Under the pieces are notes generated by a model, which saw nothing but the letters and a program-made list of their open reading frames with translations, ran no database searches and had not been told where the DNA came from. Position numbers and translations under genes: made by a program. Shown piece by piece: positions 20,538 through 52,633 of a stretch of 64,000 nt of DNA. The stretch is from assembly GCA_963402885.1 (NCBI GenBank), contig OY727099.1, positions 16,201,001 to 16,265,000 on the forward strand. Reading direction: 5' to 3'. Position 1 is the stretch's first letter. Each line of letters opens with the position of its first letter. This DNA is from Antedon bifida (Eukaryota; Echinodermata; Crinoidea; Comatulida; Antedonidae).

Positions 20538-20572
20538 CCGACAAAAGTAGGGTTTTGCCAGATCGGGTCACA
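20538..20572 (-). repeat. Right terminal inverted repeat of the 1.5-kb element
   Basis: It runs from CCGACAAAAG to GATCGGGTCACA and is the inverted partner of 19071-19105. The satellite resumes at 20573 in minus orientation. Confidence 0.85.
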
Positions 20573-24547: not shown

Positions 24548-24555
24548 TATACAGA

Positions 24556-25248
24556 TCACATGGCATTTACCTGCTTGGACCCATCGATATATATCGTCGC
24601 TAGATCTATTGGCATTTGCCTGCTTGCGTTTACAGTGTAACGAGATAGGGATTTCCTATGTTAATGCACTGTTCGTATATAGCAGGAAAATGCCATAATT
24701 TCTCACAAAACCATAGATAGTGTTTTGCTATATCTTTTCTTTTAGGTAACTAATTTTGGTCGGATTTTCACATAAATATAGATAAAATGTTCCTTTTGAT
24801 CATATCACTCACCCAGCCTTCGTTAACCACCACTTTTTAAGAAATCGGTTTCTGAACTTGGCCTTCTTATCGGGTAATGTTTTTCATCGATCGTATTTGA
24901 CGACAAATGATGTTTTTCGTTTTATTATCGCCAACAATGGAAATTAAATTTTCTTTTTTGTATACGATAAAATAACATATACAGAAGAAGTGAACGTATG
25001 ATTATTATAAATGGTCAAATTTAATTTTTTTTCTTTGGTATTTTTTTGGCCAAAAAATATGGCATTTACCTGCTTGGAAATAGCACATTTGGCGATGGTC
25101 GCCGAAATACTTAACTTTAAATTTCAATTTTTTGCCAGTAGGTCTATATATGTGTGTAGTTTATAATGGTGAAGTTTTGATACGTTTTGATATTTTTTCT
25201 TTGAGATATAAGCAAATCAACCTTTGGTAGATGGCAGAAACCTGCTTA
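24556..25248 (+). repeat. Left terminal cluster of the GGCATTTACCTGCTT motif
   Basis: Copies lie at 24561-24578 (TGGCATTTACCTGCTTGG), 24609-24626 (TTGGCATTTGCCTGCTTG), 25060-25077 (TGGCATTTACCTGCTTGG) and 25232-25248 (a divergent copy, TGGCAGAAACCTGCTTA). A reverse-oriented copy, AGCAGGAAAATGCCA, is at 24681-24695. The spacing is irregular. The first copy plus ACC matches the right-end copy at 52465-52485 perfectly in inverted orientation (21 bp). This resembles the subterminal binding-site clusters of DNA transposons. Confidence 0.65.
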
Positions 25249-25618
25249 AGTCCAAATATAGCATACCTCGTAACTTTGGCTATAATTTGTTAAATCAGCT
25301 GAAACTCACGGAATGTTGTCATTTTATTATTTTTATTATATGGTATTAATATCAGAATTGTTAGTTTTTTAAAAAAATATTTATGATAAGTTTAAATTTT
25401 CCATATTTAAGGCGCTAGCTCTACTTTTCTTGATATTTTGTTGTTGAGGGCGGGGTTTTTTTGTTACCTCGACAAAAAGAGTTTTTTACGGTTAAAAAAC
25501 ATCGCTTAATTACACTTTTCAACAATAAAACAAATAATTTATTTGTTAAAAAATAATTAAAATAATATTTTACTGATCTTTATACATTAATTACACAGTA
25601 AACATGTTTAAATGTTAA
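25249..25618. other. AT-rich sequence without recognised feature
   Basis: There is no supported gene. A minus-strand splice-donor-like GAG|GTAACA lies near 25475, and a G-rich GAGGGCGGGG patch at about 25447-25456. I see nothing else. Confidence 0.4.
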
Positions 25619-26158
25619 GTTAGGGCTAGGCTTAGCCTGACCCAAAATCGAGACAAATTAAAAAACTCAACGAAAGTTATCTCCGAGTTTTTAAAAGAAT
25701 ACTTGGTTTACTAATGGTTTATTTCGTAATAAACCTTACCAAAATTAATCTAAAGTAAGTGTTAAGACATTAGTTGTTGTTTTCTTTATGGATATTAGTT
25801 CTTAAGGTTTAATATTAGGCTGATAGGCCTTATAAACTAGGCCTAGTAGGCCAGGCCCTAAATAAAGGCTAGGCCTACCTAGCCTAGGTGCTAGGCTAGA
25901 CCTTAGTTATGCCTAAAATGTTAGTACACAAGGAGAGTAGTTTATTCCCAAGCCGGTCTAGGTTAGGCCTACCTGTACTTTTTCAATTGTTTGTAAATAA
26001 GGCCTAGAGGCCTACTCTACCTATAAACATTAAACAATTAGGCTTCTGCTTTTGAGGCCTAGGCCTAGGGCCTAGGCCTACCCCCTACTAGGCTAGGCTA
26101 GGCCTACTAGGCCTAGGCTAGTTTGTTCTTGGACATTTTATGCTTATCAAACTAGACC
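25619..26158. repeat. AGGCCTA/CTAGGC-rich patch, left side of the block
   Basis: It has dense, irregular AGGCCTA, GCCTAGG and CTAGGCTA words, densest at about 26050-26125, making many short palindromes. A second patch of the same kind lies near the right end (52035-52210). The same words also occur inside the 1.5-kb element, so this may be a genome-wide compositional feature. Confidence 0.6.
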
Positions 26159-26360
26159 TATGCCCACAATCATAATTCTTACATAGTGTTATTTATAAAG
26201 CAAATAATTTATTATTATATTACTGTAGTGTTTTTGGTTAATATTATTATTTTAGACATTCAGGCTGGTTGAGTGTATTCTTCATGTTTTTTATTTATCC
26301 AATATACTACTAGGCCTAGTATTAGCAATATCTCTCTAAACTTCATTTCTTGTCTTTCAG

Positions 26361-26403
26361 ATAAATTGATGCCTCTTCAGAAACAATACCAGAATTTAGT
26401 ATG
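26361..26403 (+). other. Candidate exon with ATG
   Basis: It is preceded by a pyrimidine-rich acceptor ending TGTCTTTCAG and followed by ATG|GTAATT. An ATG at 26369 gives 11 codons plus two bases of a split codon. The frame is also open upstream to the acceptor, so it need not be the first coding exon. Confidence 0.3.
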
Positions 26404-26990
26404 GTAATTTTAAATTTATTGTATTGAGAATATTTACTTTTATTAAATATGATTACTGAATTTTTTTTTTACTATTAAAAAACAAACAGAATCATCATAC
26501 TACAAAATATAAACCAAAGGAACTTTAATCTATATCATAGCAATTTCATAATTTAACAAGTTTTTTTTCTAGTTTTATTCTTATGTAGTTTATCCAGCAA
26601 TTTCTTTAGTAACACTGTTTTTCATCAAGTTATGTGTGCATGCAGTGAACAAGGAGTGAATACTGGTAACTGGATATGTTTTTATTGGTGCATTTGTCAC
26701 TACTAACTATACTAATAATATACAAAATTGATATCCATTATATCAAAATATGTTTTATTCTTTCCCAACATTAGAAAAATACATTACATCACCGCTAACA
26801 CAATGTTCTATTTATTATTTCAAATGCTACTTCTTCTAAAACATGTCACCTTATTCGACTTAATTGTTTCTCTATAACATAAATTAATTTTATTTCATCA
26901 TCCATGTTTAATGAAAACAATGTTAAATCAGACTATTGAATATCATCTAAGTTTAGTTGTGTTTATAATGCATAACATTTTCTTTCTTAG

Positions 26991-27096
26991 AATAGAACAG
27001 TGACAAGTGTAATTATAATTGAAGGGAAATGTAAAACCATGAGGAATACCAATTAGGAAGCAACAGTAACAATACTCTGTTCTTTTAATTAAAAAG
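26991..27096 (+). other. Candidate non-coding or cassette exon
   Basis: It is bounded by TTTTCTTTCTTAG and AAAAAG|GTAAATC. Joining it to the 26361-26403 exon gives an immediate TGA, so if used it would be untranslated or truncating. Confidence 0.25.
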
Positions 27097-27242
27097 GTAA
27101 ATCATTTACTTATTATAATTGACTTTATGCCCATAGCAATTGTTAAAATCATGGATTAATATATTTCTATATGTAAGCCTATCCTTGATCATGAACTCAA
27201 AAACAGCAGACATGCTAACTGAAAAGTATAGGTATTAGTAAA

Positions 27243-27985
27243 CAATGATTAATGTAATCAGTTGAGAACACAACATTCAAGTAGTTGTACTTTTATCTGT
27301 GTTACATCTTCTCTCTATCTCTCTTTTATTATATCTCTGTTAGCTCTAACTGCATATTTTGTCTTATTAGTGTGTGAAGAAGGATAATTGATATGATTTT
27401 AGAAGAGGAAGATACCAAATAACAAGATGAGGGAAGATAAAATGAAGGGGAAACAAGAGAAGATGGTTAAATATAAGACTAGTATTATATTATAGCAATT
27501 ACTGTATAGTTTAATTATTATAAAATGAACATTAACCCATTTATTAACCCATCTATAAGATTAATATTAAATAACAGAGCACTCAAGGCAATGCCACAAT
27601 ATATAATATAACCTACCCATTTTTTTTCAAAAGAGTAACGGATGTCTTACAGTTAAAATAAAATGAGAAAGATTTGTTATGAGGAAATCTGGGGCAATTT
27701 TTGTGGAATTATTGTAAACCCAAAACTGGATTTGATTATTGAATATCAATTGATTTTGTTGTTGTTTTTTTTTATATACTTTCAGTTTCTGCTGTGGTTT
27801 CAATCAACCGCCACTTCACAAAATTCTTCAGGTAATTAATTAACTTTATGATTTTTTAAATTTAATGTTTTTTGCTTTACTAATATGTTACTTTTATTTA
27901 AACTACTAATAAACCACCATATAACTGATGCACACAATAGATGTAGTTAGTTTAATGATAGTAGGTGTAGTTATAATAGTCATTC
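27243..27985 (+). repeat. Direct duplication, copy 1 (contains the 46-bp candidate exon)
   Basis: This ~700-bp segment matches 29710-30415 at high identity, including the tract around CTAACTGCATATTTTGTCTT, an A/G-rich stretch at 27371-27465 and the candidate exon. Both copies end in the ~45-bp repeat array, so the repeated unit is probably segment plus array. Confidence 0.75.
27786..27831 (+). other. Candidate 46-bp exon, duplicated at 30232
   Basis: The acceptor is TATATACTTTCAG and the donor TTCAG|GTAATT. It completes the split codon from 26403 and encodes 15 further residues, including a Cys-Cys pair, ending in phase 0. A diverged copy lies at 30232-30272. Confidence 0.3.
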
Positions 27986-29715
27986 TTTAGTTGATTTAAA
28001 CAGAATGAATGAATGTAGCTGATCAATCATAAAAAAAATAGTTGATTATTTAGTTATTGTTTAGTAGGTGTAGTTGAAAATTACTAACTGTTTAGTTGAT
28101 TTCAACTTATTAAATGTAGTTTAATCAGTAATTGTTTAGTTGATTTGATGCTAGTAGGTGTAGTTCAAAATAAATGTAGTTTATTATTCAGTAAAATAGT
28201 TATTTAAACACAACATATTTTTGATAATTCAGTAATTGTTTAGTTGACTTGATTTATAGTATTTGTAGTTAATAGTTAGGATTGTTTAGTTGATTTAAAC
28301 ACAACAAATGTAGTTAAATGTAGTTTAATCAGTAATTGTTTAGTTGATTTAATCACAACAAATATAGTTGATTAATTAGTAAGTATCTACTTGATTCTAT
28401 GAAAGTAGATGTAGTTGATAATTAGTAAATGTTTAGTTGATTTAAACACAACAATTGTAAATTAATCAGTAAATGTTTAGTTGATTTAAACACAATAAAT
28501 GAGTTGCTTATTTAGTTATTGTTTAATTGATTTGAGGATAGTAAGTGTAGTTGAGAATTAGTCATTGTTTAGTTGATTTAAACTTATTAACTCTAGTTTA
28601 TTAGTTAATAACTGTTTACTTGTTTAGATGATAGTAGGTGTAGCTGATCAACTTATCAACACAATACATGTGGATGACTTAAACATAAATGTTGTTGATT
28701 TATCAGGAATTGCTTAGTTGATTTAAAAATAGTAGGTGTAGTTGAGAATTGTTAAGTGTTTAGTTTATTTAAACACAATAGATGTAGTTTATTATTTAGT
28801 TATTGTTTAGTTGATTTGATGATAGAAAATGTAGTTAATTTATCAGTCATTCTTTAGTTGATTTAATCACAATAAATGTAGTTTATTATTCAGTAAATAT
28901 TTAGTTATTTAAACACAATAGATGTAGTTGATTGATTAATTGGTAATTGTTTAGTTGATTTGATGATAGAAAGTGTAGTTGAGAATTATTAGGTATTTAG
29001 TATATTTCAACACAATTAATGTAGTTGCTTATTTAGTTATTGTTTAGTTGATTTGATGATAGTAAGTGTAGTTAATTTATCAGTCATTGATTAGTTGATT
29101 TAATCACAAGAAATGTAGTTTATTATTCAGTAAATATTTAGTTATTTAAACATAGATAATTTAGTAATTGTTTACTTGGTTTGGTAATAGTAGGTGTAGT
29201 TAATAGTTAAGATTGTTTAGTTGATTTAAACACAACAAATTTAGTTTAATCAGTAATTGTTTAGTTGATTTTATGATAGTAAGTGTAGTTGATGAATGTT
29301 AAATGTTTAGTTAATTTAAACACAACAAATGTAGTAATCAGTAATTGTTTAGTTGATTTTATGATAGTAAGTGTAGTTGATGAATGTTAAATGTTTAGTT
29401 AATTTAAACACAACAAATGTAGTAATCAGTAATTGTTTAGTTGATATAAACACAATACATTTAGTTGATTAGTCAGGGACTGTTTAGTTTATTTAATGAT
29501 AGTAGGTGTAATTTATTATTAGTATTTGTTTAGATGATTTAATCATAATAAATGTAGTTTAATAATTAGTAAGTGTTTACTTGTCTACATGATAGTAGGT
29601 GTAACTTAGCAGGTGTTGATTTAATCACAATACATCTAGTGGATTATTTAGTTATTGTTTAGTTGATTTAAACATAATAAATGTAGTTTAATCAATAATT
29701 GTTTAGTTGACAATT
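27927..29715 (+). repeat. Degenerate ~45-bp tandem array, first block
   Basis: Units alternate between TTTAGTTGATTTGATGATAG... and TTTAGTTGATTTAAACACAA..., each ~43-48 bp, with TGTAGTTGATAATTAGTAAT-like connectors. Divergence is high and longer blocks are duplicated: about 28556-29025 is nearly identical to 40718-41188. No coding potential. Confidence 0.85.
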
Positions 29716-30415
29716 ATTAATGTAATTATTTGAGAACACTACTTTTATCTGTGTTACATTTTATCTCTTATTACTCAGTTTATATCTGTGTTAGCTCTAA
29801 CTACATGTTTTGTCTTCTTAGAGCGTGAAGAAGATAATTGATAATATGATTTTAGAAGAGGAAGATACCAAATAACAAGATGAGGGAAGATAAAATGAAG
29901 GGGAAACAAGAGAAGATGGTTCAATATAAGACTAGTATTATATTATAGCAATTACTGTAATAGTTTAATTATTATAAAATGAACATTAACCCATTTTTAA
30001 AGTCTATCATATTATTATTAAATAATAGAGCACCCAAGTCAATGCCACAATGTATAATTTAACCCTACTCAAAAGAGTAACAGATGTCTTACAGTTAAAA
30101 TAAAATGAGAAATAGTAATTGTTATGGAAAAATCTGGGGCAATTGTTGTGGAATTATTGTAAACCCAAAACTGGATTTGATTATTGAATAATAATTGATT
30201 TTTGTTTTTTTTTTATTTTATATACTTTCAGTTTCTGCTGTGGTTTCAATCATCCTCCACATAATTCTTCAGGTAATTGATTAACTATATGATTTTTCGA
30301 GTTTTATGTTTTTTAATTTACTAACATGTTACTTTTATTTAAACTAATAATAAACCACCATATAACTGATGTACACAATAAATGTAGTTAGTTTAATGAT
30401 AGTAGGTGTAGTTGA
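29710..30415 (+). repeat. Direct duplication, copy 2
   Basis: This is the second copy of 27243-27985, with small indels, including loss of the CATTCAAGTAGTT segment present in copy 1. It contains the candidate exon at 30232-30272. Confidence 0.75.
30232..30272 (+). other. Diverged duplicate of the 46-bp candidate exon, frame lost
   Basis: Acceptor (ATATACTTTCAG) and donor (CTTCAG|GTAATT) are conserved, but a net loss of 5 bp makes it 41 bp and shifts the frame relative to 27786-27831. It looks like a decaying copy, or a non-coding exon. Confidence 0.3.
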
Positions 30416-30890
30416 TAATATTCATTCTTTAGTTAGTTTAATGATAGTAGGTGTAGTTGATAATAGTCATTCTTTAGTTAGTTTAATGATAGTAGGTGTA
30501 GTTGATGTTAGTCATTCTTTAGTTAGTTTAATGATAGTAGGTGTAGTTGATAGTTAGGATAGTTTAGTTGATTTAAACACAATAAATATAGTTAATTTTT
30601 ATGATAGTAGGTGTAGTTGATAATTAGTCATTCTTTAGTTGAATTAAACACAATGAATGTAGTTGATCAATCAGTAATTATTTACTTGATTTTATGAGAG
30701 TAGATGTAGTTGATAATTACTAATTTTTTAGATGATTAAAAAACACAATAAATGTAGTTGGTTTATTAGGAATTGTTTAGTTGATTTAATGATAGTATAT
30801 GTAGTTTATAATCAGTAATTGTTTAGCAGATTTTAAACACAATTAATGTAGTTGATTATTTAGTTAAACAATTAAAAACATCAATTTAGT
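30369..30890 (+). repeat. ~45-bp array, second block, with a regular 4-copy stretch
   Basis: Four nearly exact 45-bp units start at 30386, 30431, 30476 and 30521. The 45-bp period keeps a 62-codon repetitive frame open by chance; I do not call it a gene. The remainder is degenerate. Confidence 0.8.
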
Positions 30891-31165
30891 TTAGTTTAGT
30901 TGATTGTACTGTAGGACAAATTTAAACACAGCAATGCAGTTTAGTTGGTTGTGGAACAAAAGTGAACAGAGTTTAGTTTGGTTAATTGTTGTAGGACAAA
31001 TGTAGACACAACAATGTAGTTTAGTTTATTTGGTTGTAGGACAAATGCAGACACAGCAGTTCAGTTTAGTTAATTACCTTAGGAACAAATAAACACAAGA
31101 ATGCAGTTTAGTTTAGTTAGTTGTAGGACATAATATATTGATAAATAATATATTGACACAACATT
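30891..31165 (+). repeat. Short block related to the 92-bp array
   Basis: GTTTAGTT(G/T)GTTGTAGGACAAA-type units, as in 42356-44390, with AAACACA spacers. It grades into the 128-bp satellite at about 31166. Confidence 0.6.
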
Positions 31166-34100
31166 AAACTAGGGGTAACAAATGTAGGGGTACAGTTATT
31201 ATAGAACACAATTAAGAGTACATATTTTAGACAAATCTGAAAGTATAATAGGTTGAGAAATCATCTATTGAACAACTCAACAATACAGGACATTCAAGTA
31301 GTTCGACATGTGTAGAGGTACAGTTATTATAGAACACAATTAGGATTACATATTTTAGACAAATCTAACTGAATAAATTTTTGAGAAATCATCTATTGAA
31401 CAACTCAACAATACAGGACATTCAAGTAGTTAGACATGTGTAGGAGTACAGTTATTATAGAACATAATTAGGAGTACATATTTTAGACAAATCTAACAGA
31501 ATAAATTGTTGAGAAATTATCTATTAAACAACCCAATAATACAGGACATTCAAGTAGTTAGACATGTGTAGGGGTACAGTTATTATAGGACACAATTAGG
31601 AGTAAATATTTTAGACAAATCTGAAAGTATAATTGGTTGAGAAATCATCTATTGAACAACCCAATAATACAGGACATTCAAGTAGTTAGATATGTGTAGG
31701 GGTACAGTTATTATAGGACACAATTAGGAGTAAATATTTTAGACAAATCTGAAAGTATAATTGGTTGAGAAATCATCTATTAAACAACCCAATAATACAG
31801 GACATTCAAGTAGTTAGACATGTGTAGGGGTACAGTTATTATAGAACACAATTAGGAGTACATATTTTAGACAAATCTAACAGAATAAATTGTTGAGAAA
31901 TCATCTATTGAACAACCCAATAATACAGGACATTCAAGTAGTTAGACATGTGTAGGGGTACATTTATTATAGGACACAATTAGGAGTAAATATTTTAGAC
32001 AAATCTGAAAGTATAATTGGTTGAGAAATCATCTATTGAACAACCCAATAATACAGGACATTCAAGTAGTTAGACATGTGTACGGGTACAGTTATTATAG
32101 GACACAATTAGGAGTACATATTTTAGACAAATCTGAAAGTATAATTGGTTTAGAAATCATCTATTGAACAACCCAATAATACAGGACATTCAAGTAGTTA
32201 GACATGTGTAGGGGTACAGTTATTATAGAACACAATTAGGAGTAAATATTTTAGACAAATCTGAAAGTATAATTGGTTTAGAAATCATCTATTAAACAAC
32301 CCAATAATACAGGACATTCAAGTAGTTAGACATGTGTAGGGGTACAGTTATTATAGAACACAATTAGGAGTACATATTTTAGACAAATCTAACAGAATAA
32401 ATTGTTGAGAAATCATCTATTGAACAACCCAATAATACAGGACATTCAAGTAGTTAGACATGTGTAGGGGTACAGTTATTATAGAACACAAATTAAGAGT
32501 ACATATTGTAGACAAATCTAACAGAATAAATTGTTGAGAAATCATCTATTGAACAACCCAATAATACAGGACATTCAAGTAGATAGACATGTGTAGGGGT
32601 ACAGTTATTATAGAACACAAATTAAGAGTACATATTGTAGACAAATCTAACAGAATAAATTGTTGAGAAATCATCTATTGAACAACCCAATAATACAGGA
32701 CATTCAAGTAGTTAGACATGTGTAGGGGTACATTTATTATAGGACACAATTAGGAGTAAATATTTTAGACAAATCTGAAAGTATAATTGGTTGAGAAATC
32801 ATCTATTGAACAACCCAATAATACAGGACATTCAAGTAGTTAGACATGTGTAGGGGTACAGTTATTATAGGACACAATTAGGAGTAAATATTTTAGACAA
32901 ATCTGAAAGTATAATTGGTTGAGAAATCATCTATTGAACAACCCAATAATACAGGACATTCAAGTAGAGACATGTGTAGGGGTACAGTTATTATAGAACA
33001 CAAATTAAGAGTACATATTGTAGACAAATCTAACAGAATAAATTGTTGAGAAATCATCTATTGAACAACCCAATAATACAGGACATTCAAGTAGATAGAC
33101 ATGTGTAGGGGTACAGCTATTATAGAGCACAATTAAGAGTACATATTGTAGACAAATCTAACAGTATAATTGGTTGAGAAATCATCTATTGAACAACCCA
33201 ATAATACAGGACATTCAAGTAGTTAGACATGTGTAGGGGTACAGTTATTATAGGACACAATTAGGAGTAAATATTTTAGACAAATCTAACAGAATAAATT
33301 GTTGAGAAATCATCTATTGAACAACCCAATAATACAGGACATTCAAGTAGATAGACATGTGTAGGGGTACAGTTATTATAGAGCACAATTAAGAGTACAT
33401 ATTGTAGACAAATCTAACAGTATAATTGGTTGAGAAATCATCTATTGAACAACCCAATAATACAGGACATTCAAGTAGTTAGACATGTGTAGGGGTACAG
33501 TTATTATAGGACACAATTAGGAGTAAATATTTTAGACAAATCTGAAAGTATAATTGGTTTAGAAATCATCTATTGAACAACCCAATAATACAGGACATTC
33601 AAGTAGTTAGACATGTGTGGGGGTACAGTTATTATAGGACACAATTAGGAGTAAATATTTTAGACAAATCTGAAAGTATAATTGGTTGAGAAATCATCTA
33701 TTAAACAACCCAATAATACAGGACATTCAAGTAGTTAGACATGTGTAGGGGTACAGTTATTATAGAACACAATTAGGAGTACATATTTTAGACAAATCTA
33801 ACAGAATAAATTGTTGAGAAATCATCTATTGAACAACCCAATAATACAGGACATTCAAGTAGTTAGACATGTGTGGGGGTACAGTTATTATAGGACACAA
33901 TTAGGAGTAAATATTTTAGACAAATCTGAAAGTATAATTGGTTGAGAAATCATCTATTAAACAACCCAATAATACAGGACATTCAAGTAGTTAGACATGT
34001 GTAGGGGTACAGTTATTATAGAACACAATTAGGAGTACATATTTTAGACAAATCTAACAGAATAAATTGTTGAGAAATCATCTATTGAACAACCCAATAA

Positions 34101-37100
34101 TACAGGACATTCAAGCAGTTAGACATGTGTAGGGGTACAGTTATTATAGGACACAATTAGGAGTAAATATTTTAGACAAATCTGAAAGTATAATTGGTTT
34201 AGAAATCATCTATTGAACAACCCAATAATACAGGACATTCAAGTAGTTAGACATGTGTAGGGGTACAGTTATTATAGGACACAATTAGGAGTAAATATTT
34301 TAGACAAATCTGAAAGTATAATTGGTTGAGAAATCATCTATTGAACAACCCAATAATACAGGACATTCAAGTAGTTAGACATGTGTAGGGGTACAGTTAT
34401 TATAGAACACAAATTAAGAGTACATATTGTAGACAAATCTAACAGAATAAATTGTTGAGAAATCATCTATTGAACAACCCAATAATACAGGACATTCAAG
34501 TAGATAGACATGTGTAGGGGTACAGTTATTATAGAGCACAATTAAGAGTACATATTGTAGACAAATCTAACAGTATAATTGGTTGAGAAATCATCTATTG
34601 AACAACCCAATAATACAGGACATTCAAGTAGTTAGACATGTGTAGGGGTACAGTTATTATAGGACACAATTAGGAGTAAATATTTTAGACAAATCTGAAA
34701 GTATAATTGGTTTAGAAATCATCTATTGAACAACCCAATAATACAGGACATTCAAGTAGTTAGACATGTGTAGGGGTACAGTTATTATAGGACACAATTA
34801 GGAGTACATATTGTAGACAAATCTAACAGAATAAATTGTTGAGAAATCATCTATTGAACAACCCAATAATACAGGACATTCAAGTAGATAGACATGTGTA
34901 GGGGTACAGTTATTATAGAGCACAATTAAGAGTACATATTGTAGACAAATCTGAAAGTATAATTGGTTTAGAAATCATCTATTGAACAACCCAATAATAC
35001 AGGACATTCAAGTAGTTAGACATGTGTAGGGGTACAGTTATTATAGGACACAATTAGGAGTAAATATTTTAGACAAATCTGAAAGTATAATTGGTTGAGA
35101 AATCATCTATTAAACAACCCAATAATACAGGACATTCAAGTAGTTAGATATGTGTAGGGGTACAGTTATTATAGAACACAAATTAAGAGTACATATTTTA
35201 GACAAATCTGAAAGTATAATTGGTTGAGAAATCATCTATTGAACAACCCAATAATACAGGACATTCAAGTAGTTAGACATGTGTAGGGGTACAGTTATTA
35301 TAGAACACAAATTAAGAGTACATATTGTAGACAAATCTAACAGAATAAATTGTTGAGAAATCATCTATTGAACAACCCAATAATACAGGACATTCAAGTA
35401 GATAGACATGTGTAGGGGTACAGCTATTATAGAGCACAATTAAGAGTACATATTGTAGACAAATCTAACAGTATAATTGGTTGAGAAATCATCTATTGAA
35501 CAACCCAATAATACAGGACATTCAAGTAGTTAGACATGTGTAGGGGTACAGTTATTATAGAACACAATTAGGAGTACATATTTTAGACAAATCTAACAGA
35601 ATAAATTGTTGAGAAATCATCTATTGAACAACCCAATAATACAGGACATTCAAGCAGTTAGACATGTGTAGGGGTACAGTTATTATAGAACACAATTAGG
35701 AGTACATATTTTAGACAAATCTGAAAGTATAATTGGTTGAGAAATCATCTATTGAACAACCCAATAATACAGGACATTCAAGTAGATAGACATGTGTAGG
35801 GGTACAGTTATTATAGAACACAATTAGGAGTAAATATTTTAGACAAATCTGAAAGTATAATTGGTTGAGAAATCATCTATTGAACAACCCAATAATACAG
35901 GACATTCAAGTAGTTAGACATGTGTAGGGGTACAGTTATTATAGGACACAATTAGGAGTAAATATTTTAGACAAATCTGAAAGTATAATTGGTTTAGAAA
36001 TCATCTATTGAACAACCCAATAATACAGGACATTCAAGTAGTTAGACATGTGTAGGGGTACAGTTATTATAGGACACAATTAGGAGTACATATTTTAGAC
36101 AAATCTGAAAGTATAATTGGTTGAGAAATCATCTATTAAACAACCCAATAATACAGGACATTCAAGTAGTTAGACATGTGTAGGGGTACAGTTATTATAG
36201 AACACAATTAGGAGTACATATTTTAGACAAATCTGAAAGTATAATTGGTTGAGAAATCATCTATTGAACAACCCAATAATACAGGACATTCAAGTAGATA
36301 GACATGTGTAGGGGTACAGTTATTATAGAACACAATTAGGAGTAAATATTTTAGACAAATCTGAAAGTATAATTGGTTGAGAAATCATCTATTGAACAAC
36401 CCAATAATACAGGACATTCAAGTAGTTAGACATGTGTAGGGGTACAGTTATTATAGGACACAGTTAGGAGTAAATATTTTAGACAAATCTGAAAGTATAA
36501 TTGGTTGAGAAATCATCTATTGAACAACCCAATAATACAGGACATTCAAGTAGTTAGACATGTGTAGGGGTACAGTTATTATAGGACACAATTAGGAGTA
36601 AATATTTTAGACAAATCTGAAAGTATAATTGGTTGAGAAATCATCTATTGAACAACCCAATAATACAGGACATTCAAGTAGTTAGACATGTGTAGGGGTA
36701 CAGTTATTATAGAACACAAATTAAGAGTACATATTGTAGACAAATCTAACAGAATAAATTGTTGAGAAATCATCTATTGAACAACCCAATAATACAGGAC
36801 ATTCAAGTAGATAGACATGTGTAGGGGTACAGTTATTATAGAGCACAATTAAGAGTACATATTGTAGACAAATCTAACAGTATAATTGGTTGAGAAATCA
36901 TCTATTGAACAACCCAATAATACAGGACATTCAAGTAGTTAGACATGTGTAGGGGTACAGTTATTATAGGACACAATTAGGAGTAAATATTTTAGACAAA
37001 TCTGAAAGTATAATTGGTTTAGAAATCATCTATTGAACAACCCAATAATACAGGACATTCAAGTAGTTAGACATGTGTAGGGGTACAGTTATTATAGGAC

Positions 37101-42300: not shown

Positions 42301-42355
42301 TTTGATGATAGAAAGTGTAGTTGATAATTATTAATTGTGATAATTGGTTGATAAT
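39341..42355 (+). repeat. ~45-bp array, third block, with an embedded 93-bp array
   Basis: This is the same degenerate units as 27927-29715. Block 40718-41188 duplicates 28556-29025 across the 128-bp satellite, and about 40930-41410 recurs at 45893-46380. Internal duplication of ~430 bp is also seen (about 40140 and 40565). Confidence 0.85.
41434..42085 (+). repeat. 93-bp tandem array, about 7 nearly identical copies
   Basis: ATTCAGGAATTATTCACTTG occurs at 41467, 41560, 41653 and onward every 93 bp, with almost no divergence. The unit equals two of the ~45-bp units fixed together. The same 93-bp unit recurs three times each near 44715-44960, 47320-47570 and 48800-49060. Confidence 0.92.
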
Positions 42356-44390
42356 TAGTCAGTGTTGTTTTAAGGCAAAATTAAACAGAGGAATGCAGTG
42401 CAGTTTAGTTTGTTGATTTATACCAAAATTAAACAGAGGAATTAAAGTTTAGTTTAGTTGATTGTAGGACAAATGTAGACAGCAATACAGTTTAGTTGGT
42501 TGATTTATACCAAAATTAAACAGAGGAATTAAAGTTTAGTTTAGTTGATTGTAGGACAAATGTAGACAGCAATACAGGTCAGTTTAGTTGGTTGTTTTAT
42601 GACAAAATTAAACACAACAATGTAGTTTGATTTATTGGTTGTAGGACAATAAACAGAGGAATACAGTTCAGTTTAGGTAATTGTTGTAGGACAAAATTAA
42701 ACACAAAATGTAGTTTGATTTATTGGTTGTAGGACAATAAACAGAGGAATACAGTTCAGTTTAGGTAATTGTTGTAGGACAAAATTAAACACAACAATGT
42801 AGTTTGATCTATTAGTTGTAGGACAAATATAAACAGAGGAATGCAGTTCAGTTTAGTAGTTGATTTATGCCAAAATTAAACAGAGGATTTAAAGTTTAGT
42901 TTAGTTGATTGTGGGACAAATGTAGACAGCAATACAGTTCAGTTTAGTTGGTTGATTTATACCAAAATTAAACAGAGGAATGCAGTGCAGTTTAGTTAGT
43001 TGATTTATGCCAAAATTAAACAAAGGAATTAAAGTTTAGTTTAGTTGATTGTGGGACAAATGTAGACAGCAATACAGTTCAGTTTAGTTGGTTGATTTAT
43101 ACCAAAATTAAACAGAGGAATGCAGTGCAGTTTGGTTAGTTGATTTATACCAAAATTAAACAGAGGAATGCAGTGCAGTTTAGTTAGTTGATTTATGCCA
43201 AAATTAAACAAAGGAATTAAAGTTTAGTTTAGTTGATTGTGGGACAAATGTAGACAGCAATACAGTTCAGTTTAGTTGGTTGATATATACCAAAATTAAA
43301 CAGAGGAATGCAGTGCAGTTTGGTTAGTTGATTTATGCCAAAATTAAACAGAGGAATTAAAGTTTAGTTTAGTTGATTGTGAGACAAATGTAGACAGCAA
43401 TACAGTTCAGTTTAGTTGGTTGATTTATACCAAAATTAAACAGAGGAATGCAGTTTAGTTTAGTTTAGTTTAGTTGGTTGCTTTAGGACAAAATTAAACA
43501 CAACAAAGTAGTTTGATCTATTGGTTGTAAGACAAATATAAATAGATGAATGCAATTCAGTTTAGGTAATTGTTGTAGGAAAAAATTAAACACAACAATG
43601 TAGTTTGATCTATTGGTTGTAGGACAAATATAAACAGAGGAATGCAGTTCAGTTGGTTGTTTTAGGACAAAATTAAACACAACAAAGTAGTTTGATCTAT
43701 TGGTTGTAAGACAAATATAAATAGATGAATGCAATTCAGTTTAGTTAATTGTTGTAGGACAAAATTAAACACAACAATGTAGTTTGATCTATTAGTTGTA
43801 AGACAAATATAAACAGATGAATGCAGTTCAGTTTAGTTGGTTGCTTTAGGATAAAATTAAACACAACAATGTAGTTTGATCTGTTGTTGTAGGACAAATA
43901 TAAACAGATGAATGCAGTTCAGTTTAGTTGGTTGCTTTAGGAAAAAATTAAACACAACAATGTAGTTTGATCTATTGGTTGTAGGACAAATATAAACAGA
44001 GGAATGCAGTTCAGTTTAGTTGGTTGCTTTAGGATAAAATTAAACACAAAAAAGTAGTTTGATCTATTGTTGTAGGACAAATATGAACAGAGGAATGCAG
44101 TTCAGTTTAGTGGGTTGCTTTAGGATAAAATTAAACACAATGTAGTTTGATTTATTGGTTGTAGGACAAATATAAACAGAGGAATGCAGTTCAGTTTAGT
44201 TGGTTGCTTTAGGACAAAATTAAACACAACAATGTAGTTTGATCTATTAGTTGTAGGACAAATATAAACAGTGGAATGCAGTTCAGTTTAGTTGGTTGCT
44301 TTAGGATAAAATTAAACACAACAATGTAGTTTGATTTATTGGTTGTAGGACAAATATAAACAGAGGAATGCAGTTTAGTTTAGTTGCTTT
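42356..44390 (+). repeat. ~92-bp tandem array
   Basis: The unit contains GGACAAATATAAACAGAGGA, ATGCAGTTCAGTTTAGTTGG and AAAATTAAACACAACAATG, with period 91-92 bp (43913, 44003, 44094). The left part has a variant form with TTTATACCAAAATTAAACAG and GACAAATGTAGACAGCAATA. Minus-strand open frames near 43483-43734 are repeat artefacts. Confidence 0.88.
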
Positions 44391-47300
44391 AAATATAAAC
44401 ATAATAAATGTAGTTGATTATTCAATAATTGTTTACTTTATAATAGATATAGTTGATAATTGGTCATTGTTTATTTAAACCTAATACATTTAGTTTATTA
44501 AGCAGTAGTTGTTTAGTTGATTTGGTTATAGTAGATATAGTTGATAAGTATTATTGTTTAATTGATTTGATGATAGGTGTAGTTGATAATTATTAATTGT
44601 TTAGTAGATTTAAACACAATAGACTTAGTTGATTAAACAGCAATAGGTTAGTTTATTTGATATATAATAATGTAGTTGATAATTAGTCATTGTTTAGTTG
44701 ATTTAAACACAATAAATGTAGTTTAATATTCAGGAATTATTCACTTGATTTTATGATAGTAGATATGGTTGATAATTAGTCAGTGTTTAGTTTATTTAAA
44801 CACAATAAATGTAGTTTAATATTCAGGAATTATTCACTTGATTTTATGATAGTAGATATGGTTGATAATTAGTCAGTGTTTAGTTTATTTAAACACAATA
44901 AATGTAGTTTAATATTCAGGAATTATTCACTTGATTTTATGATAGTAGATATGGTTGATAATTAGTAACTGTTTAGTTGATTTAAACTTTTTAAATGTAG
45001 TTTATTAGTTAATAAGTGTTTACTTGTTTAGATAGTAGATGTAGCTGATCATCTTATCAACACAATAAATGTAGTTGATAATTATCAATTTTTCATTTGA
45101 TTTAAACACAATAAATTTAGTCGATTAATCAGTAATTGTTAAATTGATTTGATGATAGAAATTGTAGTTGATAATTATTAATTGTGATAATTGGTTGATA
45201 ATTAGTCAGTGTTGTTTAAAGGCAAAATTAAACAGAGGAGTGCAGTTTAGTTAGTTGATTTATGCCAAAATTAAACAGAGGAATAATAGTTTAGTTTAGG
45301 TGATTGTAGGACAAATGTAGACACAGCAATACAGTTTAGTTGGTTGATTTATACCAAAATTAAACAGAGGAATTAAAGTTTAGTTTAGTTGATTGTGAGA
45401 CAAATGTAGACAGCAATACAGTTCAGTTTAGTTGGTTGCTTTAGGACAAAATTAAACACAACAATGTAGTTGTATCTATTAGTTGTAGGACAAATATAAA
45501 CAGATGAATACAGTTCAGTTTAGTTGGTTGCTTTAGGATAAAATTAAACACAACAATGTAGTTTGATCTGTTGTTGTAGGACAAATATAAACAGAAGAAT
45601 GCAGTTCAGTTTAGTTGGTTGCTTTAGGATAAAATTAAACACAACAATGTAGTTTGATCTATTGGTTGTAGGACAAATATAAACAGAGGAATGCAGTTCA
45701 GTTTAGTTGGTTGCTTTAGGATAAAATTAAACACAAAAAAGTAGTTTGATCTATTGTTGTAGGACAAATATGAACAGAGGAATGCAGTTCAGTTTAGTGG
45801 GTTGCTTTAGGATAAAATTAAACACAATGTTGACAACTTAGTTGATTAAACAGCAATATGTTAGTTTATTTGATATTTAATAATGTAGTTGATAAACACA
45901 ATAGATGTAGTTTATTATTTAGTTATTGTTTAGTTGATTTGATGATAGAAAATGTAGTTAATTTATCAGTCATTCTTTAGTTGATTTAATCACAATAAAT
46001 GTAGTTTATTATTCAGTAAATATTTAGTTATTTAAACACAATAGATGTACTTGATTGATTAATTAGTAGTTGTTTAGTTGATTTGATGATAGAAAGTGTA
46101 GTTGAGAATTATTAGGTATTTTGTATATTTCAACAAAATTAATGTAGTTGATTATTTAGTAATTGTTTAGTTCATTTAATCAGAATAAATGTAATTTAAT
46201 TAGTAATTGTTTAGTTGTCTTAATAACAATAAATTTAGGTGATAATCAGTAATTGTTTAGTTGATTTAGTCACAATAAATGTAATTTAATCCGTAATTAT
46301 TTAGTTGATATAAACATAATAAATGTAGTTGATTACTTAGTAATTGTTTAGTTCATTTTATGATAGTAGGTGTAGTTGATACTGATGCTTTAGGATAAAA
46401 TTAAACACAATGTAGTTTGATTTATTGGTTGTAGGACAAATATAAACAGATGAATGCAGTTCAGTTTAGTTGGTTGCTTTAGGACAAAATTAAACACAAC
46501 AATGTAGTTTGATCTATTAGTTGTAGGACAAATATAAACAGTGGAATGCAGTTCAGTTTAGTTGGTTGCTTTAGGATAAAATTAAACACAACAATGTAGT
46601 TTGATCTATTGTTGTAGGACAAATATGAACAGAGGAATGCAGTTCAGTTTAGTGGGTTGCTTTAGGATAAAATTAAACACAATGTAGTTTGATTTATTGG
46701 TTGTAGGACAAATATAAACAGAGGAATGCAGTTCAGTTTAGTTGGTTGCTTTAGGACAAAATTAAACACAACAATGTAGTTTGATCTATTAGTTGTAGGA
46801 CAAATATAAACAGTGGAATGCAGTTCAGTTTAGTTGGTTGCTTTAGGATAAAATTAAACACAACAATGTAGTTTGATCTATTAGTTGTAGGACAAATATA
46901 AACAGTGGAATGCAGTTCAGTTTAGTTGGTTGCTTTAGGATAAAATTAAACACAACAATGTAGTTTGATTTATTGGTTGTAGGACAAATATAAACAGAGG
47001 AATGCAGTTTAGTTTAGTTGGTTTAAATATAAACATAATAAATGTAATTGATTATTCAATAATTGTTTACTTTATAATAGATATAGTTGATAATTGGTCA
47101 TTGTTTATTTAAACCTAATACATTTAGTTTATTAAGCAGTAGTTGTTTAGTTGATTTGGTGATAGTAGATATAGTTGATAAGTATTATTGTTTAACTGAT
47201 TTGATGATAGGTGTAGTTGATAATTATTAATTGTTTAGTAGATTTAAACACAATAGACTTAGTTGATTAAACAGCAATAGGTTAGTTTATTTGATATTTA

Positions 47301-49985
47301 ATAATGTAGTTGATTTAAACACAATAAATGTAGTTTAATATTCAGGAATTATTCACTTGATTTTATGATAGTAGATATGGTTGATAATTAGTCAGTGATT
47401 AGTTTATTTAAACACAATAAATGTAGTTTAATATTCAGGAATTATTCACTTGATTTTATGATAGTAGATATGGTTGATAATTAGTCAGTGTTTAGTTTAT
47501 TTAAACACAATAAATGTAGTTTAATATTCAGGAATTATTCACTTGATTTTATGATAGTAGATATGGTTGATAATTAGTAACTGTTTAGTTGATTTAAACT
47601 TTTTAAATGTAGTTTATTAGTTAATAAGTGTTTACTTGTTTAGATAGTAGATGTAGCTGATCATCTTATCAACACAATAAATGTAGTTGATAATTATCAA
47701 TTTTTCATTTGATTTAAACACAATAAACGGGATCGATTAATCAGTAATTGTTTAATTGATTTGATGATAGAAAGTGTAGTTGATAATTATTAATTGTGAT
47801 AATTGGTTGATAATTAGTCAGTGTTGTTTTAGGGCAAAATTAAACAGAGGAGTGCAATTTAGTTAGTTGATTTATGCCAAAATTAACAGAGGAATAATAG
47901 TTTAGTTTAGGTGATTGTAGGACAAATGTAGACACAGCAATACAGTTTAGTTGGTTGATTTATACCAAAATTAAACAGAGGAATTAAAGTTTAGTTTAGT
48001 TGATTGTGAGACAAATGTAGACAGCAATACAGTTCAGTTTAGTTGGTTGCTTTAGGACAAAATTAAACACAACAATGTAGTTGTATCTATTAGTTGTAGG
48101 ACAAATATAAACAGATGAATACAGTTCAGTTTAGTTGGTTGCTTTAGGATAAAATTAAACACAACAATGTAGTTTGATTTATTGGTTGTAGGACAAATAT
48201 AAACAGAGGAATGCAGTTCAGTTTAGTTGGTTGCTTTAGGACAAAATTAAACACAACAATGTAGTTTGATCTATTAGTTGTAGGACAAATATAAACAGTG
48301 GAATGCAGTTCAGTTTAGTTGGTTGCTTTAGGATAAAATTAAACACAACAATGTAGTTTGATCTATTAGTTGTAGGACAAATATAAACAGTGGAATGCAG
48401 TTCAGTTTAGTTGGTTGCTTTAGGATAAAATTAAACACAACAATGTAGTTTGATTTATTGGTTGTAGGACAAATATAAACAGAGGAATGCAGTTTAGTTT
48501 AGTTGGTTTAAATATAAACATAATAAATGTAATTGATTATTCAATAATTGTTTACTTTATAATAGATATAGTTGATAATTGGTCATTGTTTATTTAAACC
48601 TAATACATTTAGTTTATTAAGCAGTAGTTGTTTAGTTGATTTGGTGATAGTAGATATAGTTGATAAGTATTATTGTTTAACTGATTTGATGATAGGTGTA
48701 GTTGATAATTATTAATTGTTTAGTAGATTTAAACACAATAGACATAGTTGATTAAACAGCAATAGGTTAGTTTATTTGATATTTAATAATGTAGTTGATT
48801 TAAACACAATAAATGTAGTTTAATATTCAGGAATTATTCACTTGATTTTATGATAGTAGATATGGTTGATAATTAGTCAGTGATTAGTTTATTTAAACAC
48901 AATAAATGTAGTTTAATATTCAGGAATTATTCACTTGATTTTATGATAGTAGATATGGTTGATAATTAGTCAGTGTTTAGTTTATTTAAACACAATAAAT
49001 GTAGTTTAATATTCAGGAATTATTCACTTGATTTTATGATAGTAGATATGGTTGATAATTAGTAACTGTTTAGTTGATTTAAACTTTTTAAATGTAGTTT
49101 ATTAGTTAATAAGTGTTTACTTGTTTAGATAACAACTGACTAATCAAATTAAACACAACAATGTAGTTGTATCTATTAGTTGTAGGACAAATATAAACAG
49201 ATGAATACAGTTCAGTTTAGTTGGTTGCTTTAGGATAAAATTAAACACAACAATGTAGTTTGATTTATTGGTTGTAGGACAAATATAAACAGAAGAATGC
49301 AGTTCAGTTTAGTTGGTTTAAATATAAACATAATAAATGAAGTTGATTATTCATTAATTGTTTACTTGATAGTAGATATAGTTGATAATTAGTCATTGTT
49401 TATTTAAACCTAATACAGTTAGTTTATTAATCAGTAGTTGATTTGGTGATGGTAGATATAGTTGATAAGTTTTATTGTTTAATTGATTTGATGATAGGTG
49501 TAGTTGATAATTAATAATTGTTTAGTAGATTTAAACACAATAGACATAGTTGATTAAACAGCAATAGGTTAGTTTATTTGATAATAATAATGTAGTTGAT
49601 AATTAGTAATTTCAGTTGATTTAATAATAATAAATGTAGTTTAATAATCAGTAGTTGTTTAGTTAATTTGATGATAATTAGTAGGTGTAGCTGATAAATA
49701 GATAATTGGTAATTGTTTAGTAGATTTGAACATAATAAACATAGTTTATTAAACATCAATAGTTTAGTTTATTTGAGTGTAGTTGATAATTAGTAATTGT
49801 TTAGTTGGTTTAAACACAACATAGGTAGTTGATGTATCAGGGATTACTTATTTGATTTGAAATGTTGATTTAAACACAATAAATGTAGTTGATCAACCTG
49901 TAATGTTTACTTGCTTTGATGATAGTAGATGCAGATGATTAATTAGTTATTGTTTAGTTTAATAGTAAGTTTAGTTGATAATAAA
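44391..49985 (+). repeat. Mosaic of alternating 92-bp, 93-bp and ~45-bp blocks
   Basis: 92-bp-type blocks occur at about 45216-45830, 46384-47020, 47816-48505 and 49146-49318. They alternate with ~45-bp and 93-bp blocks. A composite unit of ~1485 bp is repeated nearly exactly (starting at 47021 and 48506), and a related one starts near 44386. The pattern indicates repeated segmental duplication within the array. No gene is seen. Confidence 0.85.
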
Positions 49986-50061
49986 TTTTTTTCAATGTAC
50001 ATATATGAGATAACATTTAATTTGCTGAGAACACATTCATATTATTACTGTTTAATTTTAG

Positions 50062-50154
50062 TTGTATGGAAGCAGTGACCAAGATAATCAGAAACTGAAT
50101 GGGAAAGAAGATGAAGAAAAAGAAATACCAAACACCAAGAAAGAACAGAAATAG
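50062..50154 (+). other. Candidate terminal coding exon with charged C-terminus
   Basis: The acceptor is GTTTAATTTTAG. The phase-0 frame gives 30 codons rich in Lys, Glu, Asp and Asn, ending with TAG at 50152-50154. AATAAA follows at 50231. It is the first non-repetitive sequence after the arrays. See the transcription-unit entry for the spliced model. Confidence 0.3.
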
Positions 50155-50230
50155 GCCTACATAATTATATATATATGTTGGTATGATACTTTTAATTATC
50201 TCAATTAAAACCAACCACCCATATTCATGA

Positions 50231-50236
50231 AATAAA
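50231..50236 (+). terminator. Possible polyadenylation signal AATAAA
   Basis: An AATAAA hexamer 77 bp after the candidate stop codon. In AT-rich DNA the hexamer is common, so support is weak by itself. Confidence 0.25.
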
Positions 50237-50411
50237 GTGCAAAACAAATTCTAAGCAATTGATTAAACCAAATATAAAAATCCTTACAATTAGAATATAG
50301 TGAAAACTATGTAGGCAAATCAGAAACTAATTGACTGGAAACAGAAATGTAGAAATTGACAGTTAGTTATTTTAGTCTTTTAAAATGTTTATTTTCTTTT
50401 TCTACCCACAG

Positions 50412-50537
50412 TTAGTTGATGTTTGGTCTTTGCAGCATTTGCATAGAATGAGTCAAATGCAGAAAAACAGCATTACAACAGCACCACAATCCATATTTGT
50501 ACAGTTTCGAGGCTCACTTGTTCTGGTAGTAGATTGA
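50412..50537 (+). other. Alternative candidate terminal exon, 41 open codons
   Basis: A strong acceptor (TTTTCTACCCACAG) is followed by a phase-0 frame of 41 codons ending with TGA at 50535-50537. The composition is more GC-rich and less biased than its surroundings. AATAAA lies at 50858-50863. No family is recognised. Confidence 0.3.
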
Positions 50538-50857
50538 GTCTTCCGAGACATGGGCCACATACATATAGAGGACATATAAGAAAGAGAACCTGGATTGGTG
50601 GAACTTACACAATGTAACACTTAGTGGAAAGCATGTAGTTGAACAGAGTCATATCTTTACGAAGTACTATAATGAGAACATTACTCATTAAAATGGAAGT
50701 TTACTATTGTATTATTTTGTAAAATGAACATTTATGTTTTCTTAATGCTTGCAACAAACTAAAGTTCTTTTGAGTAGTTGTTTGTGATATTTTAGATTTT
50801 TTTGATTCAATTACGGTATATTGCTATTTGTGATTAATCAAGAAGAATTATTGAAGA

Positions 50858-50863
50858 AATAAA
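50858..50863 (+). terminator. Possible polyadenylation signal AATAAA
   Basis: AATAAA within GAAGAAATAAAG, about 320 bp after the candidate stop at 50537, followed by an A/T-rich stretch. Confidence 0.25.
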
Positions 50864-51004
50864 GTTTTAAAAAATATATTGAATTAACATCTCTAATTAT
50901 TTGTAGGCCTACACCTGATCATATCCAATTTCTAAATAAAATAAAAACAAAACTGTTGATTTATCAAAGGATGTATATATAGCTACAGATAAGAAGATTG
51001 AAAT

Positions 51005-51109
51005 TTATTGGTTGCACGTTAAAGCGGATGGTTGAGCGTGGAGATCGACTTTATCACATGGGTGGAGTTGTTTCTTCTTGTCTATCAGCTGCATGGTAAA
51101 CGTCATCAT
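51005..51109 (-). other. Small minus-strand open frame, possible terminal exon
   Basis: A 34-codon frame starts with two ATG codons at 51109 and ends with TAA at 51005, and an AATAAA overlaps the stop. Local GC content is clearly above the surroundings (around 51010-51110). A splice-acceptor-like TTTACCATGCAG lies inside, so this could be the last exon of a minus-strand transcript that begins near the right edge of the block. No family is recognised. Confidence 0.22.
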
Positions 51110-51933
51110 GATTACGTTTTACCTACAATTCTTTCAAAATAATAAATAATAGTACAAGGCAAAAGTGGCAATGACTCCTAAACTAATAATACCATACAAC
51201 AGACTCTTTTAAACACAAGAATAAATCTAAATTTGCTTCAAAATGCTTATTTTGTTTTTAATTACAAATTCAAGTTGATATAACAATTACTGCCTGGATT
51301 ATTGAAAATACAGCAAAAAATGACTTCAGCCTACTTTGATTGCTTTTTAATTACCAATTCAGAGTTTGTACCAACAAAAATGAATGTTCATGCAATAATA
51401 TATTACATTAATTTACTATTTTAATTTATTCCAGACCCACCAGTGTACAAGATTGCCATAAAAATACTCTCTCCAATTTGAGTACAGATTTAGGCATAGG
51501 CCTATATATTTAAAATGACATTAAATGCTGAAATATTACAATTAAAAAAATTTATGTCAGAAAACATTTGAACTAGATCATTGTAAGACCTATACATGAG
51601 AATACTTAATTTTAAACAAATGATTTATTCAACATTTGCACACAGGAACACAACCATAATTCATAACAAAATTAATCCAATTTTAAAAATAATTTCATTT
51701 AGTGTGTAGTAGCCTAGTTCTTGGCAGAAATTGAATTTTGTACTTATGAATCCGTTTATTTTTGGATATATTAAAATAATATAAATAAGTATTCAGTAGT
51801 AGCCTACACAATTTTTAATATACAGTATACATATAAGCCTAGCCTATATAATTTAACATTACATTATTTATTTTAAATAATGTCGCTAATAATAGGCCTA
51901 TGTGTGTATGCATAGGGTACTTTGTTTGGCATT
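51110..51933. other. AT-rich unique sequence
   Basis: No repeat array and no supported gene. Scattered AGGCCTA words. Confidence 0.4.
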
Positions 51934-52256
51934 TCATAAATTCTCAGCAACTTGGTCAGGCAGTATATAAATATATTGAATTCCTGTAAATAAAAACAAG
52001 GAAAAATAATTAAGCATGCATTACTACATAGGCAAAGCTAGTTAGCCAGCCTAGGCTTAGGACAGGCACCCTAAATTAAGGCCTGTGCTAGGTAGGCGCC
52101 TAACCTAGCTTCCCAGACCTGGTCCTAGTAGGCTAGCCTAGGCCTATTCTATATACCATCTTCGCTATGATAGGCCTAACCTAAAACGTACTTTATTAGC
52201 CTAGGCCTAGCAGTCAGTATGATTTGTAATCAGAAAATAGATGTATTTTTCTTACC
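51934..52256 (-). other. Candidate minus-strand exon pair with strong splice signals
   Basis: Read on the minus strand, AGTAAGAG|GTAAGA at 52256/52255 is a near-ideal donor, and TTTTTATTTACAG at about 51984 a good acceptor. Joining them keeps one frame open from an upstream stop to TGA at 51934-51936 (about 35 codons), but no ATG is present, so further upstream coding sequence or a non-coding transcript would be required. Confidence 0.2.
52035..52210. repeat. AGGCCTA/CTAGGC-rich patch, right side of the block
   Basis: Counterpart of 25619-26158: dense GCCTAGGCC, CTAGGC and TAGGCGCC words. It lies between the candidate minus-strand donor and acceptor. Confidence 0.6.
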
Positions 52257-52366
52257 TCTTACTAAAAAAACCCAACTCAATTTTAATATCTTCGCATCGA
52301 AAGGAAGATCGGACTCTTTGTTTATTTACTTTTACAAAAATAAAGTTGATGCAGAGCCTGAAAGTC

Positions 52367-52628
52367 GGCAGGTAAAGGCCAAAGAGAAATCATAATGTTG
52401 GCGACGTATAGCAAACGCGATCGAAATTTGCCACACCGCTCAACTCAAGCAGGTCCGATGCCATGGTCCAAGCAGGTAAATGCCAGCTGGTAAATGCCAA
52501 AGGGCCTCACACACGCAGGACAGCTGCCAATGTGCTCTCATGGCGGCAGCACGCATGCCATTGAGATCTCACACAAGCAGTTGAAATGCCATTGTGCGCT
52601 CACACAGGCAGAAAAAAGTCCATTGTGA
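52367..52628 (-). repeat. Right terminal cluster of the AAGCAGGTAAATGCCA motif
   Basis: Inverted relative to the left cluster. Copies or relatives lie at 52367, 52446, 52468-52485 (CCAAGCAGGTAAATGCCA), 52486, 52513, 52544, 52574 (CAAGCAGTTGAAATGCCA) and 52603. From 52506 they form a degenerate ~30-bp direct repeat, CTCACACAnGCAG...TGCCATTGTG, of four units, the last ending 5 bp from the satellite junction. There are more copies, more tightly packed, than at the left end. Confidence 0.7.
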
Positions 52629-52633
52629 GACGG

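Follow-up and report, generated by a model that had tools for sequence, protein, structure and literature searches.

A 64,000-nucleotide stretch of the genome of the crinoid Antedon bifida (contig OY727099.1, C12:16201001-16265000 in our numbering, hereafter the window) contains a long array of a 186-bp satellite, which is interrupted by a 28,086-bp block consisting of tandem repeats of other kinds between two unique edges. We searched for the ends, edges, repeats and motifs of this block across the 315.6 Mb of the same genome, which comprises 27 contigs (C1-C27), and all copy counts given below are lower bounds. Five other loci, each with flanks of its own, carry both ends of the block, and precise empty sites exist, indicating that the block is mobile.

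Junctions, copies and empty sites

The host satellite is cut such that its left part ends in GGCTCTATA (24539-24547) and its right part restarts with ATAAGATGATG at 52634 in the same orientation. When the block was removed and ATA was counted once, the rejoined site was a normal monomer that scored 97.3% against its best match among 87 monomers recovered from the window with a strict box, with a median of 0.871 and a worst value of 0.325 over all 87, compared to a median of 0.838 for random monomer pairs. Among 117 satellite boxes scanned, the junction alone reads GGCTCTATATATA, and its extra TATA is present in no other box; TATACAG was therefore assigned to the block. Within the block, no occurrence of the satellite core CCCCGCAGTGAAATTTT was found, compared to 51 in the whole window. 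These results bear out the original prediction that the block had entered a single monomer and holds none of the 186-bp satellite. The satellite itself changes orientation between 19.0 and 20.6 kb (window 7381-19006 versus 20572-62632), and no satellite was listed in that gap.

The left end (24544-24700) was found again, at 99-100% identity, at C15:9187833, C11:11098068, C9:7130030, C1:15067441 and C11:11704892, and the right end at C15, C9, C1, two C11 places and C12:17105544, with one of the C11 right ends matching 217 of 261 bases and having one 31-bp unit fewer. Both ends, in the same orientation and 16.6 to 22.8 kb apart, thus occur at five further loci on four chromosomes, giving complete copies of 28,086 bp (window), 22,833 bp (C15), 16,592 bp (C11a), 18,329 bp (C9), 20,610 bp (C1) and 19,650 bp (C11b), all of which differ from each other in the 80-base flanks compared. 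The left end of the seventh copy (C12b, at 17.1 Mb) was absent from the fetched stretch and from the genome search. The right terminus ATCCGTCTCACAATGG is exact in all seven copies, with GACGG directly followed by AT throughout, and the left terminus is exact in five of six, C11b being off by one base. A further site resembling the right terminus with one mismatch (C9:10265873) was judged a chance match, with no motif seen by eye in 300 bases.

The C11b copy provided a second, non-satellite target, being inserted within the open reading frame (ORF) of another repeat. A 249-bp piece of its left flank matched nine places at 97-100% (itself counted) and one more partly at 83%. Two unfilled copies of this host repeat that were read (L056 and L057) have GCGATACATATTTATG at the empty site, while the filled site is GCGATACATA-CATACAG...GACGG-ATATTTATG, an overlap of ATA as in the window. 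At both independent targets the join is precise, with at most ATA repeated. The bases that follow the element are ATG in C15 and ATT in C9, so that AT alone is constant over the seven right ends. The target is equally consistent with a 2-bp AT duplication, with element ends AYATACAG...GACGG, and with insertion at A^T without duplication. Of the 2-3 bp target duplication originally predicted, the short overlap is upheld at both empty sites, while its reading as a duplication is matched by a duplication-free A^T insertion. That the block moved as one large, non-autonomous unit carrying its own satellites, as had also been proposed together with a search for other copies sharing both ends, is strengthened by the five loci recovered, by the empty sites at two unrelated targets, and by the presence of the same arrays in all six complete copies.

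Insertion targets are AT-rich, and TA-rich flanks were seen at many copies. About 0.7 kb separates the end of the C1 copy from a same-strand ORF with a TROVE domain (E 1.2e-19; L024:723-1118, C1:15045722-15046117), and the copy may lie inside or beside a TROVE-domain gene. The C11a copy is placed after a reverse-transcriptase ORF (RVT_1, E 4.4e-14; L019:870-1229, C11:11097437), and may have been inserted in a retrotransposon.

The inverted motif clusters predicted at both edges were recovered by a motif scan. At four or fewer mismatches, the 17-bp motif TGGCATTTACCTGCTTG has five sites in the left 700 bp (four on the plus strand, one on the minus strand) and three in the right 270 bp, all on the minus strand. 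At five mismatches, the block contains 10 sites, two of them internal, whereas 4.6 would be expected from five Markov shuffles; we consequently rely on the five closest sites, which have 0-2 mismatches. The genome holds 20 exact sites, of which 19 belong to the ends of the copies described here and the last to the C8 relic described below.

Layout, copy history and a second family

All six complete copies share one layout (Table 1), in which a unique left edge of 3.5 kb is followed by 47/93-bp repeats, a 128-bp array, 47/92-bp repeats, and a unique right edge of 2.6 kb or more. The number of 128-bp units varies widely, from 9.2 in C9 to 20.4 in C11b, 21.3 in C11a, 21.7 in C15, 30.3 in C1 and 63.7 in the window. 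The right edges fall into two groups, A (window, C15, C11a, C9) with 99.0-99.6% identity within the group, and B (C1, C11b, C12b) with 98.1-99.1%; identity between the groups is 92.7-93.5%, and when gaps are counted, most of the group B edge is 79-82% identical to that of the window copy. Variants in the right edge set C1, C11b and C12b against the others at 136 positions, while those in the left edge are common to C9 and C1 (13), to the window and C11a (8), or present in C15 alone (53). Because the two edges group the copies differently, we conclude that the halves have separate histories and that copies have exchanged sequence. An approximately 85-bp short dispersed repeat within the right edge (51503-51588) was the target of 25 of the 43 matches listed, at 75-84%.

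L058 (C8:9865031-9868028) and L041/L042 (C9:13627176-13629714) contain partial matches to the left edge (about 90%) and the right edge (about 84%, with one stretch 93% identical to group B), which are broken up by unrelated DNA. They are likely older relics of related elements. Capture of host genes at C8:9865031 and C9:13627176 was considered and rejected, as the C8 piece itself holds the motif and no gene was seen by eye (without a Pfam test).

Table 1. Positions of the element, its parts and its surroundings in the window, and left ends of the second family in the genome
Feature	Coordinates	Strand	Basis or remark
Mobile element	24548..52633, 28,086 bp (24547-52633 with AT in place of ATA as the duplication)	+	ends common to five other loci
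Left target-overlap copy ATA	24545..24547 (AT = 24545-24546)	.	junction sequence
Right target-overlap copy ATA	52634..52636 (AT = 52634-52635, constant in seven copies)	.	junction sequence
Host 186-bp satellite, left flank	20572..24547	+	tandem-repeat listing
Host 186-bp satellite, right flank	52634..62632	+	tandem-repeat listing
Left cluster of TGGCATTTACCTGCTTG	24561..25250 (sites 24561, 24610, 24679 on minus, 25060, 25232)	+	motif scan
Left unique edge	24548..28060	+	97.6-99.8% identity, aligned columns, six copies having this edge
Putative exon-like segment	27785..27832	+	acceptor TTTCAG and donor CAG/GTAATT kept in six module copies compared
47/93-bp repeat zone	28062..31130	+	strong G over C on this strand
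128-bp tandem array	31183..39340	+	63.7 units in window copy
Second zone, 47/93-bp and 92-bp repeats	39398..49776	+	repeat listing
Right unique edge	49990..52633	+	two subfamilies over seven copies
Candidate splice acceptor TTCTACCCACAG and exon start	50397..50452	+	best right-edge block in common with family 2, E 2e-8
Putative poly(A)-signal block	50853..50885 (AATAAA 50859-50864)	+	E 0.019 with family 2, control level
Second right-edge block conserved with family 2	52322..52363	+	E 3.7e-5
Right motif cluster, opposite orientation, with 31-bp subterminal repeats	52365..52633 (sites 52365, 52469, 52483)	-	motif scan
Family 2 left ends	C7:13273686, C7:11270742, C9:16865744, C10:14405517, C11:2995607, C11:4171812		

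The 128-bp satellite gave 252 matches in the genome and also occurs outside the copies of this first family, with seven such places among the matches listed. An exact terminus, CTCAACGGCTTTTGCTACG, has six sites genome-wide, and was found at six of the seven places, 3.5-3.7 kb before the first listed match; none was listed at the seventh (C11:10.03 Mb). The right end of this second family, read fully in one copy, matched these six places alone, with 100% identity (rounded) over 419 bases (747-756 bits). Both ends are therefore present in six of the six copies found, with computed lengths of about 19.4, 20.5, 22.3, 25.8, 25.9 and 28.7 kb, and all six left flanks are TA-rich. The two families have in common their layout as far as seen, the satellite, related ends, 31-bp right subterminal units (by eye), and a 186-bp block in the left edge (70%, E 8e-21). 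The C9 copy of family 2 (L064/L066, C9:16865825 and 16846100) occupies the TA-rich middle of a palindrome, its flanks being mutually reverse complement by eye.

The window also contains an open frame of 972 amino acids (2349-5267, minus strand), which by eye resembles the protein of a non-LTR retrotransposon, comprising an endonuclease and a reverse transcriptase. Contig C27 (15.8 kb) is mitochondrial, and its COX1 would read better by eye with AAA as Asn and ATA as Ile (code 9, used by echinoderms and flatworms) than with code 5.

Coding content and a possible transcript

No transposase was recognised in the ORFs of the element, in agreement with the original prediction, and no genome search was aimed at YqaJ, Helitron or other transposase families. 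The four ORFs tested matched no Pfam family, the remaining ORFs being judged by eye, and no Rfam family was found in 24000-53200. The longest ORF listed well inside the unique edges, one of the four tested, is a minus-strand frame of 93 amino acids in the left edge, which is listed for C11a, C9, C1 and C11b and not for the window copy or C15. Although the last 49 codons of this frame have a start region in common with family 2, it was rejected as coding, as the window copy lacks 25 bases in this region and family 2 stops early (by eye).

The possibility of a transcribed gene, raised in the original prediction, is supported indirectly, by splice-site-like blocks conserved within and between the families, and the transcript itself is predicted from sequence. 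Around the exon-like segment of the left edge, 10 of the 10 preceding bases and nine of the 10 following bases are invariant, compared to 70% overall in the six module copies. The segment itself is 83% conserved and differs in length by 5 bp, and is therefore not coding; a module window near 27404-27458 is better conserved (96%). In the right edge, the two strongest interfamily blocks are listed in Table 1, and two more have E values of 0.002 and 0.005, little better than the control. Since the reversed control reached a best E of 0.019, equal to that of the AATAAA block, this block alone proves nothing. The plus strand shows an excess of G over C, with a skew of 0.33-0.48 in the 47/92-bp zones and about 0.2 in the 128-bp array, although tandem units are not independent evidence. 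Such an excess agrees in sign with transcription of the strand that carries it. The conserved blocks would fit a spliced non-coding RNA from the plus strand.

Competing explanations and significance

We consider it probable that the block represents a giant DNA transposon in full length, non-autonomous and mobilised in trans. A transposase supplied from elsewhere would bind the inward-facing repeated motif WTGGCATTTACCTGCTTG at both ends, and the bound enzyme would pair the two ends and paste the entire unit into an AT dinucleotide. Between moves, the internal tandem arrays would grow and shrink, and could supply the homology by which copies swap halves. More tentatively, the plus strand may give rise to a spliced, polyadenylated non-coding transcript with the arrays inside its introns.

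Several observations weigh against this reading. Transposition in trans by a DDE transposase is an assumption, and a search for an autonomous partner with the exact 17-mer and the right terminus recovered only the seven copies and one relic. At two or fewer mismatches the motif has 73 places, of which 40 lie outside the copies (all with two mismatches), compared to 14 in the reversed control, and diverged relatives or partners may exist among these 40. The extreme ends form a poor inverted repeat (AYATACAG versus CCGTCTCAC), with 3-4 extra bases at the left end, and an AT duplication and a duplication-free A^T insertion are indistinguishable at both empty sites. Finally, a gene may lie within a copy of family 2, in which the sequence read comprised five short pieces of left ends, 0.6 kb from a single left edge and 3 kb from a single right end.

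Helitrons begin with 5' TC and end with 3' CTRR and a hairpin. A rolling-circle element of this type that reads from the right end, entered at A^T with no duplication and has gathered repeats inside would account for the AT that follows GACGG in all seven copies, for the two empty sites, which both permit A^T, and for the TC with which the reverse reading begins; non-autonomous Helentrons with central satellite-like repeats exist in the oyster (PMC7492417). We nevertheless regard such an origin as unlikely, because the opposite end is CTGTATRTA rather than CTRR, the folding of the ends does not surpass that of shuffled sequence (z -0.68 and -0.55), the two ends carry the repeated motif in inverted orientation, and the Helentron-type HINEs are said in the same text to favour TT, whereas AT stands at seven of seven right ends here. 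Movement by a tyrosine or serine recombinase, with crossover at a short core (AT or ATA) as in cargo-bearing elements, is quite unlikely. It would agree with the core common to both junctions, the large size and the poor terminal inverted repeats, but no recombinase gene was recognised in the sequence read, and repeated inverted subterminal motifs bear more resemblance to DDE transposase sites.

The TA-rich flanks of many copies, and the exchange of parts between copies, could also be explained without a transposition enzyme, by segmental duplication or by re-integration of a circle through TA repeats. We find this very unlikely, given the exactness of the ends, the lack of common 80-base flanks, and the fact that two targets, the window satellite and the repeat holding C11b, differ from TA microsatellites. 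Satellites are easily misassembled, and an artefact could conceivably have fused two unrelated regions at the satellite; the six loci with both ends and different flanks, and the same join at a second, non-satellite target, render this extremely improbable.

Comparison to known systems demonstrates that each superfamily considered (ISL2EU, Helitron, Helentron/HINE, Tc1/mariner, Polinton) fails at least one tested feature. Polintons/Mavericks carry polymerase and integrase genes and long terminal inverted repeats. No such polymerase or integrase ORF was seen in the element (by eye; four ORFs Pfam-tested), and their 6-bp duplication exceeds the overlap of at most 3 bp at the two empty sites. The TA duplication of Tc1/mariner is not compatible with the ATG and ATT right flanks of C15 and C9. 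ISL2EU elements of the PHIS superfamily duplicate AT in AT-rich targets (A/AT/T), and autonomous members average about 4.8 kb (PMC4482050). The AT-rich targets and constant AT of the element would fit this pattern and an A^T insertion equally well, but both empty sites read otherwise (T/AT/A and C/AT/A), the ends are not the usual GG-starting inverted repeats, no DDE or YqaJ gene was recognised (without an aimed genome search), and the element is far longer.

The closest analogues are non-autonomous elements that carry satellites, for example Cg_HINE of Crassostrea gigas, described as non-autonomous Helentrons in which satellite-like arrays occupy the centre and a flank lies on either side (PMC7492417). 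Like the element in A. bifida, they are non-coding, carry related or differing arrays, and in some cases lie within repetitive DNA. In contrast, their flank consensus is based on stretches of 50-100 bp, they prefer TT as a duplication-free insertion site, and they possess a microsatellite and a 3' palindrome, whereas the element has edges of about 3.5 and 2.6 kb, an AT target, a length of 17-29 kb, and inverted subterminal motif clusters. Tetris of Drosophila virilis is likewise a DNA transposon tied to a satellite, which it feeds (PMC4079207); it is a foldback transposon by its title, whereas the element has central repeats and ends without long inverted repeats. Some copies exceed 20 kb, as do giant eukaryotic transposons, but that limit is applied to the coding region in a review of such transposons (PMC6431247), while the bulk of the element is tandem repeats with no recognised coding region. 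None of the titles among the best 10 to 20 matches of each keyword search of the literature refers to an element of this sort, although one may have been published.

A bolder view is that the two sister families represent an undescribed class of giant elements that carry as cargo a non-coding transcription unit in which satellites form the introns; selection would act on the RNA instead of on an encoded protein, and the satellites would be functional components instead of by-products. We consider this doubtful. The transposon itself clearly exemplifies the transport of satellite arrays within transposons, which bears on how satellites spread. Most non-autonomous DNA transposons are well below the 17-29 kb reached here without a recognised protein. 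Because highly similar copies contain from 9 to 64 units of one array, array turnover is measurable per insertion. The sister family with the same layout suggests that the design has persisted, and thus a role for the non-coding content becomes testable.

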